A stretch of 64,000 nucleotides of DNA. Source: an uncultured Bacteroidales bacterium. GTDB taxonomy: Bacteria > Bacteroidota > Bacteroidia > Bacteroidales > UBA932. Within the stretch, counting starts at the first letter, position 1. Each line of letters opens with the position of its first letter. Of the stretch, positions 273-7,707 are shown piece after piece. The DNA lies in the NCBI GenBank assembly GCA_944322715.1, contig CALUPT010000002.1:1-64000 (forward strand), read 5' to 3'. A model generated the notes under the pieces. The model had not been told where the DNA came from. It did no database searches and saw only the letters and a list, made by a program, of their open reading frames with translations. Both the position numbers and the translations under genes were made by a program.

Positions 273-545
273 TTATTCTTGGCTGTTTAGATACTCTTTC
301 TCTGCCTTTATGTACTCTGATTCAACTTTAATTAGCCAGTATTCAGAACAGGTATTGAAGTATTTGATTCCAGTTGAAAGCATAGCATATTCCACATCCC
401 AGAATATGTCCCGTCTGCGTTTCTCCAGTTCTGACAGTTCTACTTTCAACTGTTCTCTCTGTCTGATACTTTCTCTGAATCTTCTGTCGTACTCTCTGAT
501 TTCTCTTGTAGGAACGAAGTTGTCCCAGTTCATTTCCTTGCTCAT
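273..545 (-). CDS. Hypothetical coiled-coil protein of the element
   Basis: A 90-residue protein rich in Glu, Arg and Lys with a predicted helical, coiled-coil-like middle (residues about 15-50, motif RQREQLKVELSELEKRRRD). No signal peptide or membrane segment is seen and I do not recognise the family. An in-frame ATG also exists at 572. I prefer 545 because the bases just upstream (546-566) match the AACCAATTAAA leader found before other genes of this element. It ends with TAA. It shares general character (charged helices, many aromatic residues near the end) with the next gene upstream at 606-935, and the two may be related cargo genes of one transcript. Confidence 0.55.
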   Translation of the reverse strand: MSKEMNWDNFVPTREIREYDRRFRESIRQREQLKVELSELEKRRRDIFWDVEYAMLSTGIKYFNTCSEYWLIKVESEYIKAEKEYLNSQE

Positions 546-605
546 AATCGTTTCATTTAATTGGTTATTCATTCGGATTTTCCTTTGATTTCCTTGATTT
601 GGATT

Positions 606-935
606 CTACATAGGCGATTCTGTCTTATTTTCTGTTTGTCTGTCCAGTTCAGCCATGAAGTCCAGCATAATGTCCGTCCATATCTTGAACTCCATTTCGT
701 ATGCACTATCTGCCAGATAATAGCAGTATTCTGCCCTTGCTTCATAGTATTCGATACCAGCCTTGAATATCCTTTGCTTCATCTGGTGCTTCAAGTTCTG
801 CTGCTGTTCCTTTGCAAGATTGTCAAGTCTCCTTTGCAACCTTTGTTTCCTTTGGGAATTGGCCTTTGCATCCCTGTAAAGTTCTTCCGCATAGTCTGAC
901 GGTGTAAATCCGTTGTAACCTGTCGTTTCTTCCAT
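606..935 (-). CDS. Hypothetical helical protein of the element
   Basis: A 109-residue charged, helical protein with a QKQRLQRRL-type coiled-coil stretch near residues 25-55 and a Tyr-rich segment (GIEYYEARAEYCYYL) after it. Not recognised. Two starts are plausible. The ATG at 935 is preceded by the conserved leader and an AAAGGA ribosome-binding sequence (936-959), which is why I chose it. The ATG at 1049 overlaps the stop of the upstream gene (TGATG) and would give 147 residues. If the longer form is real, the two genes are translationally coupled. The stop is TAG. Confidence 0.55.
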   Translation of the reverse strand: MEETTGYNGFTPSDYAEELYRDAKANSQRKQRLQRRLDNLAKEQQQNLKHQMKQRIFKAGIEYYEARAEYCYYLADSAYEMEFKIWTDIMLDFMAELDRQTENKTESPM

Positions 936-959
936 TGTTCCTTTGATTTTTAATTGGTT
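936..959 (-). promoter_or_regulatory. Conserved AT-rich leader with ribosome-binding site
   Basis: On the minus strand this reads AACCAATTAAAAATCAA followed by AGGAACA and the start codon at 935. Close copies stand directly before the starts at 545 (546-566), 4986 (4987-5008) and 6014 (6015-6035). It is a shared translation-initiation leader of the element's genes, so it also helps choose starts. Its binding partner is unknown. Confidence 0.5.
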
Positions 960-1048
960 ATAGATAAATGAAATATCCAACTCAATTTCCAGTTTATTTG
1001 GAAACCGAATCGGATATTCCTTTGCTTTTCCATCCCTTGATAGTTTCA

Positions 1049-1339
1049 TCAGTTCGACATATCCTCCGCTATCTTCTGAATCACCCAATCCATTGAGAGA
1101 CCTTGACCCGAAGTCTGTCTGCCCCACCAATAGCAGTCGTATGCAGCAAGTACCACTTCTCCGTTGTTTTTCAGCATATCCGCCATAAACGGTGTAACAA
1201 GCCACCATTCGAGGACATCAGTATCTTCATCGAAATTCTCCAGTTCTTCCCAGAGACATTCATCGTGTTTCATGAGTTCTTCTATGACAAGATTCTGGTT
1301 GTCGAGAATCAAGTCGTTTACAATCTGTTGTGCTGTCAT
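1049..1339 (-). CDS. Hypothetical acidic protein of the element
   Basis: A 96-residue acidic protein (MTAQQIVNDLILDNQNLV...). It contains paired tryptophans (LEWWLV, YWWG), Glu/Asp-rich segments and no membrane segment. I do not recognise it. Small acidic proteins of this kind are frequent in Bacteroidales mobile elements, but nothing here shows a function. The gene ends TGA TGA, and the second reading of that sequence gives an ATG at 1049 for a possible longer form of the next gene. A short hairpin followed by a T-run lies just upstream (1353-1378). Confidence 0.5.
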   Translation of the reverse strand: MTAQQIVNDLILDNQNLVIEELMKHDECLWEELENFDEDTDVLEWWLVTPFMADMLKNNGEVVLAAYDCYWWGRQTSGQGLSMDWVIQKIAEDMSN

Positions 1340-1789: not shown

Positions 1790-2128
1790 CTATTGTTCCA
1801 GTAATGTCTGCGCTTCCTCTTTCAGTTTCGGCAAATGGTTTATCACTATACTCCATAGAATATCGGCTGAAAGACTGTCATAGCCATGTATGATATAGTT
1901 CCTTGCATCGACTATCTTTCGGGAATTGGTAATGGCTATGTTTCTGTCCTCTTTCAGAATCCTGTTCATTGCCTCACCGATTATCTCAATATCCCTTTCT
2001 ACTGCCCGTCTTAAACACAGGTCATTGCAGAACTCGTTGAAATACTTGGGCTTGTCTCCAAAGAATGATTCTATCTCATTGATTGCATCCAGAATGTCGT
2101 GCAGATGCTTGTTTATATTCTCATCCAT
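1790..2128 (-). CDS. hepT: HEPN-family toxin HepT (DUF86 RNase)
   Basis: A 112-residue all-helical protein with the HEPN signature R76-x4-H81-x-Y83 (RNYIIHGY). This is the RX4HXY catalytic motif of the DUF86/HepT ribonuclease toxins. Known: in studied MntA-HepT pairs HepT cleaves RNA and is silenced when MntA adds AMP units to the motif tyrosine, here Y83. The gene overlaps the antitoxin gene by 8 bases (2121-2128), the usual order in this family being antitoxin first, and is followed by a terminator. No residue of the motif is missing, so the toxin looks intact. Its RNA target cannot be told from the sequence. Confidence 0.88.
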   Translation of the reverse strand: MDENINKHLHDILDAINEIESFFGDKPKYFNEFCNDLCLRRAVERDIEIIGEAMNRILKEDRNIAITNSRKIVDARNYIIHGYDSLSADILWSIVINHLPKLKEEAQTLLEQ

Positions 2129-2420
2129 ATATCAATTGCTTTGTAGAATCCACATTCTTTCGGAAATACGGATTTTTTATGGACTGTTCCTCTACCAAAT
2201 CAACCTTTCTGCCGAACAAATCCTGTAATGAATACTTGAAATCGAAGTAATTGTCGAAATAATCCTCCACCTCGTCTTTCTTGAAATCCACGACCAAATC
2301 TATGTCGCTTTCATCATTGAATCTGTCAGTCAATACAGACCCGAAAACGAAAAGCCTGTTTACCTTGTACCGTTTGCACAAGGAAACTATGTTCTTGATA
2401 TGATTGTCTATCAATTTCAT
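2121..2420 (-). CDS. mntA: MntA-type nucleotidyltransferase antitoxin
   Basis: A 99-residue minimal nucleotidyltransferase. The motif G27-S28-x10-D39-x-D41 (GSVLTDRFNDESDIDLVVDF) is the metal-binding GSx10DxD signature of the DNA polymerase beta superfamily. Known: proteins of this size paired with DUF86 toxins act as AMPylating antitoxins. The start is the ATG at 2420; an in-frame TTG nine bases upstream is less likely. It is the first gene of a two-gene unit with hepT and overlaps it. The pair probably stabilises the element or defends against phage; both roles are known for the family, neither is shown here. Confidence 0.88.
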   Translation of the reverse strand: MKLIDNHIKNIVSLCKRYKVNRLFVFGSVLTDRFNDESDIDLVVDFKKDEVEDYFDNYFDFKYSLQDLFGRKVDLVEEQSIKNPYFRKNVDSTKQLIYG

Positions 2421-2510
2421 CTTTTGCAAATATAGTCTTTTTATCTATACACAGATAATGAGACTGCCAAATCCATTCCAAATTTTTTTGGAAACCAAAC
2501 TCACAGATAC

Positions 2511-3123: not shown

Positions 3124-4986
3124 TTAGAAATCACTCCTTACGAATCTGCTCCTTATGATTGTCATGCAGGAGACATTCTTCCCGTCTATCCGTTTCGGGG
3201 ATGTCACTGTGTCATACCATTGCCCCATATCGGTTGCCTTTGCCCGCCTGTTTACTCCCACCGTATCGTATATCTTCTGGAGTTCTTCCTTTATCTTCTT
3301 CACTGGTATCGGTGTCTGCTTCGGGAATCTCCTGTCAGCCATTTCTACTATCTTCAAGTCCGTGTCCACCCTTGACATCGCTGTCAGTGCATCCTGTATC
3401 GCCCCGACCCTGTATTTGAGTGCCTTGACCTTTTCATCACCCAGTTTCGTGTATGCGTCCCCTATGAACGGGTATATCGCTTCCGACAGTTCTATCTCCC
3501 AGTCTGTCGTGAACATTATCGGCTTCTCATGCCTTATCTCGCTGTATCTCCTGTATATGTCCTCAAAGTTTGTCCTTGTCTGTGTCATTGCCTGTATGTT
3601 TTTCGGTGCTGTATAGGAATCGTTGTTCGCTATGCCGATTCCGTTCTTCTTAATCTCGTTCTCTACCGTTATCTGTGAACTGTATACCCCGTTGACAATC
3701 CTGTAATTCACTATCTCGTATTTCGCCATGTTCCTGTCTACCGTGAGTTTTCCGTCCTCCTCACAAATGAACTTTCCGTTGATGTACGGCAGGTTGCGGA
3801 TTATGCTCGTCTTCATCTGGTCCGACAGGGCGTTGATGTGTTCCAAGTCATGTTCCGTCTTTTCCACAGCTTCCCATGTGGCTCTCTCGAACTCGTCTGG
3901 GCTTACCGTCCTCTGATTGCCTGTCGCTCCGTACAGGTGTATCACTTCCCCTCCGTATATGTTGTTTCTTACCCTCCCTGCTATCTGGATGAACGATGTG
4001 GATATGTCTGGCACCGTGTGGGTCTTGTACGGCTCGCTGACTATGAATGTCCGTCCTCTCTCATCGTATATGTCGCATCCCTCGAAGGCAGTGGATGTAT
4101 AAAAGTTGAACATCTTTGTCTGGTCTGCCGTCCTGCTTATCGGGAAGCCGTGGAGTTTGGCTGTGTTCTGCTTTCCGCTGGACTGTGAGCATACGACCCT
4201 TGTGTTGTCTGGTGTGAGACCTGCGTTGCGGATTATCCAGTATATGCCCTCCACACTGTTTAGGAAGATATGGTAGTTGCTGCCGATGTTTTCTCCCTTG
4301 AGCCTGTTTCTGCATATCCCAGTCATGTATGCAAGGGGATTGCCCTCTATCCTGTGGCTTCTGACCTTTACTGGCTCTATGTGCGGTCACTCTATCCTGT
4401 ATTCGGGCATGTCCATAAGTTCCTCCAGCCAGTATTCCCTCTCTATCGGTGTGGCGGACATGTAGGTTGCCCTGTCAAAGTCTTTTGCGATTGCAAGCAG
4501 GTTTCTTATCGCCATGTTTCGGAAACTGTAATGGTTGAACAGTGTATGCCATTCGTCCACGCACAGGTGCATATTCCCGTACGGGTCATAGCCCAATGAA
4601 TCCAGTATGCTACATACTTTCGGCACTGAATCGTAGGTGGTGGCTATCTTCGGCAGGTCTCCATGTCTGTCCATGTACTCCCGTATCTCCCCTGTCTTGT
4701 CTCCCTCACCGTATATAGGAAGCAGGACTGGTCTCCCGTCTCCGTTCTCTGGAAACTGCTGTGCCTTGTTGTCTATAAGTTCTACGAACGGCATCGCTAT
4801 CAGTGTAGGTATATTCTGCACCGTTGCCAGTGTGGTCGCTCCGCATCCTGTTGTCCCCTTGCTCAATATGCAGTTGGACGGTATCTCTTCCATTCAGTCC
4901 GTGAGGTATATTGCACCCTCTGGGGCTGTTATCTTCTGGTCTTGTGAATTGGTCGTTTTTTGATTGTCATTTTCGTGTTTACGCAT
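3124..4986 (-). pseudogene. DExH helicase-like gene interrupted by two in-frame TGA codons
   Basis: Read on the minus strand from ATG 4986 to TAA 3124 this is one frame of 620 sense positions, broken only by TGA at 4894-4896 (codon 31) and 4387-4389 (codon 200). The product has a P-loop-like motif (KGTTGCGATT, codons about 43-52, with Ala where Lys is usual), a DEWH box (CVDEWH), a SATP motif III and an AGRVRN helicase-like motif after the second TGA. The codons around both stops (YLTD-TGA-MEEIP and YRIE-TGA-PHIEP) keep their coding character. The leader before 4986 matches the element's other genes. Either two TGG codons mutated and the gene is dead, or the TGAs are read through. The pieces 4387-4893 and 3124-4326 could each be translated separately. 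Its role in the element is unknown, perhaps in replication. Confidence 0.7.
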
Positions 4987-5531
4987 AACGATTCTTAATT
5001 TGATTTGGAATTAAAATGGACTGACATTCAGCCTTATCTCTTTTATATGGAATCTCTTTCGGTCGATTCAGCCACTCAAAAAATATGGTAAGTCAGGGCA
5101 CAGTTAAGGGAGACGGCATTTTCAGCCCCTCCCTGTATCTGTGTATCGTTACGCATATATGACTGGCTTCTCCGTGACCATTGTCGGAATCAGCCTGTGC
5201 CCAGATTCGGCACTCTCCTTATCTGAATCTGTAATACGAAGTTATATAAATTTTGTGACATTTCCAAATCAAAATCCATTAAAAATCAATGGATTGCAAC
5301 TTGAACAGTGGTGGTATCTTCTCGGCTCTGGAGGACACATCTGGTGCGTTTCGGCATGTCTTAATAGGGTTGGAGGATACCTGTCTGGATGTTCTGTCGG
5401 TATTGTCCTTTAACTGCCCGTATGTTCAGCGGTTTTGTCCCCAGAAAATTCTGGAATTTGTTTTGGAATCTTCTTCGGATGTCCTTTATCGGGATGTCCA
5501 CTTGTCTCATATATGGATGTCTGCTTGACCG
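4987..5531. other. Stretch without a supported start; possible read-through tail
   Basis: The part 5347-5531 continues the frame of the gene at 5532-6014 after its TGA for about 61 sense codons to a TAA. Positions 5009-5346 hold nothing I can call. An inverted repeat at 5108-5133 (GGGAG...CTCCC with inner GGC...GCC) could end leftward transcription. Positions 4987-5008 carry the conserved leader of the helicase-like gene. Confidence 0.4.
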
Positions 5532-6014
5532 TCATTGTGGTCGGGTCGAAAATACATCCTTGATTTCCTGTGAATAGATGATACTGCCATACGGGAATGT
5601 CAGTTTCCTGTTCTGGAATGTCCTGCCGTTGCTTGTTCTGATAAAGTCTTTGAGACCTTGACAGTATTCCAAATGACGGTACAAGTGGGATTGCAGCCAG
5701 CTTATGCCCTTTGTCATTGTAGGGTCTGGAGTGAAGTTGCCGACATCAACAAGACCGTCCTTGCCTTTCAAGAGGAAACAGAGGATGAATGCTTCTATCT
5801 CCTTGTTTAGGCATAACTTGAAATCCAGTTCGGTACATCCTCCATATCTCAATCCAGTCCAGTAGTATGCCTGTCCAGACTGGTCTATACGAGGTGTGAG
5901 GATAAGTGAGGTATCATCATAGTTCTTTGCTGCCACTCTGATGATGCTGATGATTTTCTCTGTGCTCATGTTTTTCAGTTCGAGCCTTTGATAAGGGATA
6001 AATTGATTGTTCAT
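5532..6014 (-). CDS. Hypothetical protein of the element
   Basis: A 160-residue soluble protein (MNNQFIPYQRLELKN...) with an alpha/beta look, several aromatic residues and no membrane segment. I do not recognise it. The start at 6014 is supported by the conserved leader at 6015-6035 (AACCAATTAAAAATCAACATT before ATG). It is the first gene after the integrase in the direction of transcription. It ends with TGA, and the same frame then stays open for about 61 codons to a TAA at 5347, giving plausible protein sequence rich in Arg, Gln and Lys. The true product may therefore be longer if this TGA, like those in the neighbouring helicase-like gene, replaced a TGG. Confidence 0.6.
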   Translation of the reverse strand: MNNQFIPYQRLELKNMSTEKIISIIRVAAKNYDDTSLILTPRIDQSGQAYYWTGLRYGGCTELDFKLCLNKEIEAFILCFLLKGKDGLVDVGNFTPDPTMTKGISWLQSHLYRHLEYCQGLKDFIRTSNGRTFQNRKLTFPYGSIIYSQEIKDVFSTRPQ

Positions 6015-6115: not shown

Positions 6116-7336
6116 CTAAAGCAGATTCTTCATTGCTTCGTCTATCTGGGAGTTCTCGAAACTGTCGAGATAAATCTGGGTGGTTTCAAGGTCGGAATGT
6201 CCGAGACTTTCGCTGATGATTGCTATGTTCACTCCAGACCTTTTCAAGACGGTTGCGAATGTATGTCGGGCAACATAGGTCGTGAGGTGCGTTTCCAGAC
6301 CTGCCATTCTGCCTATCTCTGCAAGACATGGATTCACTTTGCCTATCACTTTGTGGATTCTGTTTTTCCTCTGTATTTCAGTTCTGTGTATCCTCCTGTC
6401 AAGTATCGGGAATATGTAATCCTCACTGGTTGCATCCTGTCTGGAATATCGCTTGATTATCTCCTGTCCCGCATCGCTTAACGGGAAACTGATTTCCTTG
6501 CCTGTCTTCTTGCGGATATACCGAACTCTGCCGTCAGATATGTCACAGTACCGTAACAGGGCTATGTCGGAGAAGTTTATGCCTGCACCGAAGTAACTGA
6601 ACAGGAATATGTCCCTTGCAAGTTGCATATAGTGCCGTTCCCCAGACAAATCAAGCGACATTATCTTCTTAACATCCTCTTTTGTCACAGCCCTTTTCTT
6701 CGTCCGCACATCGAATTTGCTGACCTTGAAATCGTTGAACGGATAAATATCTTGTTTTATCAGTTTCATTGACAGTGCCCTGTTGAACACACTGCGGAGG
6801 GTACGGAACAGGATGCTTACAGTCGTGTCCTTGATATTCCTGCCTTTCAACCATTTCTCGTATCTTTCGAGCCACTGGCAATCTATGTCGCTGAACGGGA
6901 TGTCAAGAGTGCGGTTGAATTTGATTAGAGAACTTTTCGATTGCTTGTAAACACTCATTGTTCCAAGGTGGTCTGTCCTGTGGAACTCGTCTATCAGATA
7001 ATCGTACATTTCGGAGACAGTCTTGACGGCAATCTTGTTCTCCATTATCTGGACGAGAGAAGATATGGTAAACTCCTGCTGTTTGGCAGTCAGTTCCATT
7101 ATCATACTGTTGTAAGCAGATACCTTGTCGCTTATGAGTTTGACAATGGCTTCTCTGTCTGGGCAGGATTTCTTTGGCTGATTCTTCTTGAAGTCCCAGT
7201 CCTTTTCTTTTACCGATATGCCCAACGAAACATACTTTCTCTTTCCAGATTTAGTCAATCGGAGCATAATCGGATAAGTGTTGTCCCTTTTGGGACGATA
7301 ATTAAAGCAAATAGCTTCTACAGAAGTAGTTAACAT
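6116..7336 (-). CDS. Tyrosine recombinase / integrase
   Basis: A 406-residue site-specific recombinase. The N-terminal half holds an arm-binding-like region and a SAM-like core-binding domain; the C-terminal half is the catalytic fold with ARHTFAT (R357, H358), LGHSDLETT (H380) and the nucleophile Y389. The usual first catalytic Arg is replaced (GINFSD has Asn where many integrases have Arg) and Tyr354 stands at the first His of the HxxR motif. From memory both changes are common in Bacteroidetes integrases. The ATG at 7336 gives the standard N-terminus; a longer in-frame start at 7423 would add a hydrophobic extension that does not fit. It sits beside tRNA-Gly and would catalyse integration and excision of the element. 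Confidence 0.92.
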   Translation of the reverse strand: MLTTSVEAICFNYRPKRDNTYPIMLRLTKSGKRKYVSLGISVKEKDWDFKKNQPKKSCPDREAIVKLISDKVSAYNSMIMELTAKQQEFTISSLVQIMENKIAVKTVSEMYDYLIDEFHRTDHLGTMSVYKQSKSSLIKFNRTLDIPFSDIDCQWLERYEKWLKGRNIKDTTVSILFRTLRSVFNRALSMKLIKQDIYPFNDFKVSKFDVRTKKRAVTKEDVKKIMSLDLSGERHYMQLARDIFLFSYFGAGINFSDIALLRYCDISDGRVRYIRKKTGKEISFPLSDAGQEIIKRYSRQDATSEDYIFPILDRRIHRTEIQRKNRIHKVIGKVNPCLAEIGRMAGLETHLTTYVARHTFATVLKRSGVNIAIISESLGHSDLETTQIYLDSFENSQIDEAMKNLL

Positions 7337-7344
7337 GATAATTT

Positions 7345-7365
7345 TGCTAACATATCTGCTAACAT
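7345..7365. repeat. Direct repeat before the integrase start
   Basis: Two copies of TGCTAACAT spaced by 3 bases (period 12) lie 8-30 bases upstream of the integrase start. The position and phasing suit an operator or an arm-type recombinase binding site. No further copies were seen nearby. Confidence 0.45.
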
Positions 7366-7444
7366 GAATGCTGTCAGAAGCCCCCAGAACGGGTGTAAAC
7401 CAGAGCAACAAAAAAGCAGTCACATCTCTGTAACTGCTTGATAA

Positions 7445-7514: not shown

Positions 7515-7634
7515 CATTCAGGTCGCCATTGAGCTTCGCTCATACTCCTTTCTGTTTATAATACCTTAATGAGCAAGCTCATAGCCATTATAAACAGAAA
7601 GTCGCCGCATCCTTTGGATGCAGCGACCTGAATG
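7515..7634. repeat. Nested inverted repeats beside the tRNA
   Basis: Outer arms 7515-7526 and 7623-7634 (CATTCAGGTCGC and its complement) and inner arms 7548-7562 and 7587-7601 (CTTTCTGTTTATAAT and its complement, 15 of 15) are perfect. Smaller palindromes (GAGCAAGCTC at 7571-7580) lie within. The structure overlaps the tRNA terminator and one copy of the direct repeat. Confidence 0.7.
7592..7627 (-). terminator. Terminator of tRNA-Gly
   Basis: On the minus strand GTCGC-T-GCATCC, loop AAA, GGATGC-G-GCGAC forms an 11-bp stem with an opposed T/G bulge, followed by TTTCTGTTT. It starts 8 bases past the tRNA 3' end and is a good factor-independent terminator for the tRNA. Confidence 0.65.
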
Positions 7635-7650
7635 AGCGGAAAACGAGATT
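7629..7650. repeat. Attachment-site core overlapping tRNA-Gly
   Basis: The second copy of the 22-base direct repeat. Positions 7635-7650 are the discriminator, acceptor strand and part of the T-arm of tRNA-Gly, so recombination here restores the tRNA. Confidence 0.6.
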
Positions 7651-7707
7651 CGAACTCGCGACCCTCAGCTTGGGAAGCTGATGCTCTACCAACTGAGCTA
7701 TTTCCGC
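7635..7707 (-). tRNA. tRNA-Gly (anticodon CCC)
   Basis: Minus-strand cloverleaf: acceptor stem GCGGAAA/TTTCCGC, D-arm GCTC...GAGC, anticodon stem TCAGC/GCTGA with loop TTCCCAA (anticodon CCC, decoding GGG), T-arm GCGAG/CTCGT with loop TTCGAAT, and discriminator T as usual for tRNA-Gly. CCA is not encoded. It is the integration target of the element to its left and is complete. Confidence 0.95.

Follow-up and report, generated by a model that had tools for sequence, protein, structure and literature searches.

Integrative element and its helicase gene

We analysed a window of 64,000 nucleotides from the genome of an uncultured Bacteroidales bacterium (G000), and identified in it an integrative element that runs from a tRNA-Gly(CCC) gene through an integrase, a 160-aa protein, a helicase, an MntA/HepT-like pair and small proteins to the start of the contig (Table 1). 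In many loci, elements of 7.8-15 kb lie between direct repeats (45-176 bp) located at a tRNA gene. In the case of the window element, a second tRNA-Gly remnant (C7:618-688) may be the other junction. A complete second element of 14 kb was found in the same genome (G000:C5:129000-148900; L030:1323-15340), where an 82-bp direct repeat lies around tRNA-Gly(GCC) and the genes include those of a DUF2971 protein and a BACON-type surface protein and a helicase gene with three TGAs. The 96-aa protein of the window is a homologue of L030:7450-7740 in this second element, which matches phrog_26364.

Table 1. Features of the element, with positions as numbered in the window.
Feature	Position	Strand	Remarks
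SF2-type helicase gene	3124..4986	(-)	620 codons read with TGA=Trp; terminator TAA
In-frame TGA, codon 31	4894..4896	(-)	conserved Trp column; clade TGA 23, TGG 1
In-frame TGA, codon 200	4387..4389	(-)	conserved Trp column; clade TGA 22, TGG 11
Intergenic region upstream of helicase	4987..5531		separates helicase from 160-aa protein gene
tRNA-Gly(CCC), element integration site	7634..7707	(-)	tRNA direct repeat bounds homologous element in G140
Tyrosine recombinase (integrase)	6116..7423	(-)	standard code
Conserved 160-aa element protein, f161 family (13 loci)	5532..6014	(-)	standard code, ends in TGA
MntA-like antitoxin (cargo)	2121..2429	(-)	ends in TGA
HepT-like toxin (cargo)	1790..2128	(-)	standard code; family match below curated cut-off
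Conserved 96-aa element protein, f96 family (22 loci)	1049..1339	(-)	Trp all TGG; ends in TGA
Small element protein frame	606..1208	(-)	C-terminal part like L030:6983-7285; standard code
Small element protein	273..572	(-)	homologue L030:6650-6928; standard code

The element is satellite-like: it is small and integrated, and it has an integrase and att repeats. Family searches covering part of the proteins found no complete virion gene set in L030, L032, L085, L092, L094 or L096, and no packaging gene was recognised among the element proteins. The region 4987..5531 contains no direct or inverted repeats of at least 14 nt and no iterons.

Translation of the helicase frame from ATG 4986 to TAA 3124 confirmed what the initial annotation had described, namely a 620-codon frame in which the only stops are TGA at codons 31 and 200, the latter close to where the first RecA-like domain ends. 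Also as described there, the rest of the gene uses TGG (six codons besides the two TGAs), and TGA was verified as the true stop of both mntA and the gene at 1049. The protein carries a P-loop (GTTGCGAT, 44-51) and the motifs DEWH (144-147), SAT (177-179) and QIAGR (334-338). A fold search with the predicted structure returned SF2 ATPases as the best matches (model pLDDT 74, with low overall TM-scores), and a PDB sequence search with the helicase gave no useful match. Judged by its motifs and predicted tandem RecA fold, the gene product is an SF2 helicase.

TGA codons across the helicase family

A search of 400 genomes of the window's genus, together with a profile scan of genome contigs, identified about 30 further homologues of 33-94% identity, each with one to six in-frame TGA codons. 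These TGA-bearing homologues are found in Cryptobacteroides, Alistipes (isolates), Coprenecus, Dysgonomonas and other Bacteroidales, and the cultured strains Alistipes muris DSM 112343 and Alistipes sp. Marseille-P5061 contain such elements. In addition, a second copy with three in-frame TGAs is present in the same genome as the window (G000:C5:137760-139589). The original observation is right, and its extent is much larger than was then stated. The suggestion of conditional read-through in this gene only is supported in a wider form. Within the element the helicase is the sole gene in TGA=Trp grammar, and the integrase, f96, f174, f161, f305 and BACON genes have no comparable conserved interior TGA; beyond it, TGAs occur in the second copy and in a whole gene family on related mobile elements, with relatives in TGA=Trp recoded phages. 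One homologue (L092:9986-11833) has a single TGA at a non-Trp column, which resembles an ordinary nonsense mutation.

Relatives below about 30% identity are mostly without in-frame TGA. In a quick maximum-likelihood tree, in which several inner branches are weak, the TGA-bearing genes group together, and their neighbours are TGA-free homologues of Seramator, Tannerella and Parabacteroides. A plasmid search with the window helicase gave no near match. The viral contigs scanned for close relatives of the window protein contained none; an alignment-based scan did find relatives among them.

The proposal that Trp would fit at codons 31 and 200 was borne out by the alignment. The homologues do not lack Trp at the two positions, and members of the clade carry TGA or TGG at W31 (23/1), W146 (4/23), W186 (3/14), W200 (22/11) and W590 (19/11), the remaining members having another residue at W31. 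Many distant relatives also have Trp at codon 200. On the tree, TGA and TGG interchange through three changes at W146, five at W200, six at W590 and one at W31, and the excess of TGA at W31 over the other Trp columns gave a Fisher value of 1.8e-6. An N-terminal TGA lies ahead of the P-loop in 30 of the 33 members, and neither TAA nor TAG occurs inside the gene in any of the 33 aligned clade members, where rows starting left of the scanned alignment columns were covered separately. Among five close genes, dN/dS was 0.15-0.31 between the two TGAs and 0.14-0.29 downstream of both. Of 31 helicase genes, 30 terminate with TAA or TAG and one with TGA, whereas TGA terminates 20 of 36 other genes from these elements (Fisher 2.5e-6).

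Two recent nonsense mutations had been offered as one reading of the locus, and TGG to TGA is indeed a single change. Because the Trp-column TGAs and the N-terminal TGA are conserved, the gene is under purifying selection and its terminators are TAA or TAG, this reading is refuted. TGA stands at these codons also in independent genomes and isolates and in homologues of as little as about 40% identity, and no other disabling change has accumulated. With about 30 homologues in independent genomes, an assembly error is ruled out as well, and virtually no weight attaches to nonsense mutations or sequencing errors peculiar to the window copy.

It is improbable that the TGAs are real stops that divide the gene into separate fragments, these being a leader, a first RecA domain restarted at an ATG behind TGA 31, and a C-terminal piece. 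An ATG does follow TGA 31 directly in many members, and the position of codon 200 close to a domain end would suit such a division. However, several members (L070, L079, L096) have no ATG behind the N-terminal TGA, a TGA at W146 or W590 would cut within domains, five Trp columns show exchange between TGA and TGG, and the same gene avoids TGA as its terminator. A dead relic, acquired from a recoded phage and carried along, is a very improbable explanation. Relatives of the helicase are present in recoded phages and a few copies are decayed (L086, L093, L098), but the decayed copies look different, with several TAA or TAG codons in the matched stretch, whereas dN/dS of 0.14-0.29 and a frame that in 33 deeply diverged genes is interrupted by TGA alone speak against a relic.

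We therefore consider it well supported that selection maintains, in a single gene of an integrated element, a protein whose synthesis requires UGA to be read as Trp. The helicase gene has code 4 grammar inside elements and hosts that use code 11, and the alignment predicts that its TGA codons are Trp codons, with Trp inserted at UGA. Because TGA is kept at Trp positions, the whole helicase would be producible only if the cell reads UGA as Trp.

Search for a decoder of UGA and opal-recoded phages

Neither ARAGORN, run on the loci, nor Infernal, run on three elements, detected a tRNA(UCA) in the elements, and the tRNAs that these programs detected in the elements were attachment-site tRNAs and remnants only. 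A search of the host for a suppressor tRNA-Trp(UCA), which the initial annotation had recommended, was run and found none among the 43 typed tRNA hits of G000; the one tRNA-Trp of this genome has the anticodon CCA. When eight genomes were searched for a UCA pattern, the hits were about as numerous as those of the reversed-pattern control or somewhat more so; we inspected 20 of the loci, and none held a tRNA. The base after the TGAs follows no read-through consensus, which speaks for a trans-acting decoder. UGA is also able to encode selenocysteine, but the partner residue in homologues is Trp and not Cys, and no matching RNA family or tRNA was found in the three elements searched, so that selenocysteine or another special residue has next to no probability here.

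Published opal-recoded phages carry tRNA-Sup-TCA and have Parabacteroides as their predicted host (PMC12386605), and it has been proposed that recoding restrains lytic genes (Borges et al. 2022, as cited in PMC10746230). We found TGA-bearing relatives of the helicase on IMG/VR contigs and in a Gaoshiqia sediminis prophage; the phages concerned have TGA=Trp in their terminase, portal and capsid genes. Directly behind the helicase of one recoded IMG/VR phage lies a degenerate tRNA of 71 nt with UCA in the anticodon loop (L055:11856-11926), which scored 45.9 bits with Infernal and was missed by ARAGORN. In the Gaoshiqia sediminis A06 prophage (L103, L204), most lytic genes have TGA=Trp, the terminase has 8 TGA and 0 TGG, and the recombinase gene is without TGA; no tRNA was detected on its 25.9 kb contig.

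Opal-recoded prophages were also identified in two genomes of the window host's family (L233, L234 and L235 in G924:C16; L232 in G894:C7), and a detailed comparison of one of them showed it to be related to the IMG/VR phage. A distant relative of the element protein f305 adjoins the prophage in G924:C16. The recoded prophage loci L103/L204, L232 and L233-235 have no detectable tRNA(UCA). Within the window's genus, 19 genomes matched in the search for a recoded terminase and none of these was clearly recoded. No recoded phage was linked to an element-bearing host, and a recoded prophage and an element were not seen together in one genome. Two human faecal phage scaffolds, L045 (MT838459.1) and L212 (MT839350.1), carry a related integrase and a helicase-like gene without TGA, and their ends lie inside a tRNA 3' half, the bearing of which on helper packaging is suggestive only.

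A proposed code lock and its relation to known systems

We lean, by a little more than even chance, towards a code lock, in which the satellite-like element could make its helicase only under UGA suppression provided by a recoded phage. The conserved TGA=Trp codons, the selection on the gene, the restriction to a single gene, the element boundaries, the lack of a detectable tRNA(UCA) and the recoded relatives were counted in its favour, as were the opal-recoded prophages in the host's family, the published opal-recoded phages and the lack of a consensus base after the TGAs. The absence of a link between a recoded phage and an element-bearing host, of a detectable tRNA(UCA) in the recoded prophage loci and of a recognised packaging gene was counted against it. 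The helicase would be written in the code of opal-recoded phages, whereas the integrase, the cargo and the host use the standard code. Without infection, UGA would terminate translation in the host, first within about 35 codons; therefore no helicase would be made and the element would stay dormant. We infer that the trigger is a recoded phage, entering or induced, by which, through a suppressor tRNA-Trp(UCA) or in some other way, UGA would come to be read as Trp. Production of the helicase would follow, and the protein may start replication of the element or interfere with the phage. With two or more TGAs, one of which lies close to the start in almost every member, basal read-through would be negligible.

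The main rival of the code lock is read-through of UGA at a very low or conditional level without any phage, either by the host tRNA-Trp(CCA) or under a host condition such as stress or low release factor 2, and we regard this as rather unlikely. Read-through of UGA by tRNA-Trp(CCA) is documented, and it is stronger when the 27:43 pair is lost (PMC13092985). The host's only tRNA-Trp(CCA) (L123:2019-2090) has G-U at 27:43, whereas the tRNA-Trp of Dysgonomonas, Gaoshiqia and Proteiniphilum has a Watson-Crick C-G pair there and a longer variable region than the host's. The failure to find a tRNA-UCA in elements or host also fits such read-through. On the other hand, neighbouring genes use TGA as an ordinary stop, the TGAs are without read-through context, and up to 5-6 TGAs in one helicase gene (L067, L068) multiply the loss.

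A wider form of the code lock, which we hold with slightly more doubt than confidence, is that phage satellites of gut Bacteroidales use the genetic code as an induction signal, with a lock of one to six stops that would tell a recoded helper from other phages. If this is true, another mobile element is able to sense and exploit the reassignment of codons by phages, and the question of why phages recode stop codons becomes testable in cultured bacteria. The helicase genes also form a conserved family, which gene finders using the standard code would split into pieces. In the open-access papers that we searched, we found no prior description of such a code-locked system and none of induction of phage satellites by the genetic code of a helper.

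Opal-recoded (code 4) phages (Borges et al. 2022, as cited in PMC10746230 and PMC10879173; zeta crAss-like phage Lera, PMC12386605) share with the window element, as far as these sources describe them, TGA=Trp in selected genes within standard-code hosts and integration genes in the standard code. They are full phages in which many late genes are recoded, often with a suppressor tRNA of their own, whereas the window element is small, has one recoded gene and no structural genes, and has no detectable suppressor tRNA. The SF2 DEAD-like helicases of phages D'Alembert, Phab24 and vB_EtaM_ET-ABTNL-9 are homologous to the window helicase (24-25% identity over 91-94% of the length), and are annotated in full-size phage genomes, in D'Alembert as a DEAD-like helicase. 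NBU-type integrative mobilizable elements of Bacteroides are of comparable size and also have a tyrosine integrase and a tRNA site; no relaxase or mobilization gene was recognised among the element proteins scanned, which were a part of the total. Phage satellites (P4-like, PICI, PLE) resemble the element in size, in the tyrosine integrase and tRNA attachment site, in the helicase-type gene and in the defence-like cargo, and their dormancy until helped is a property that the window element would probably share.
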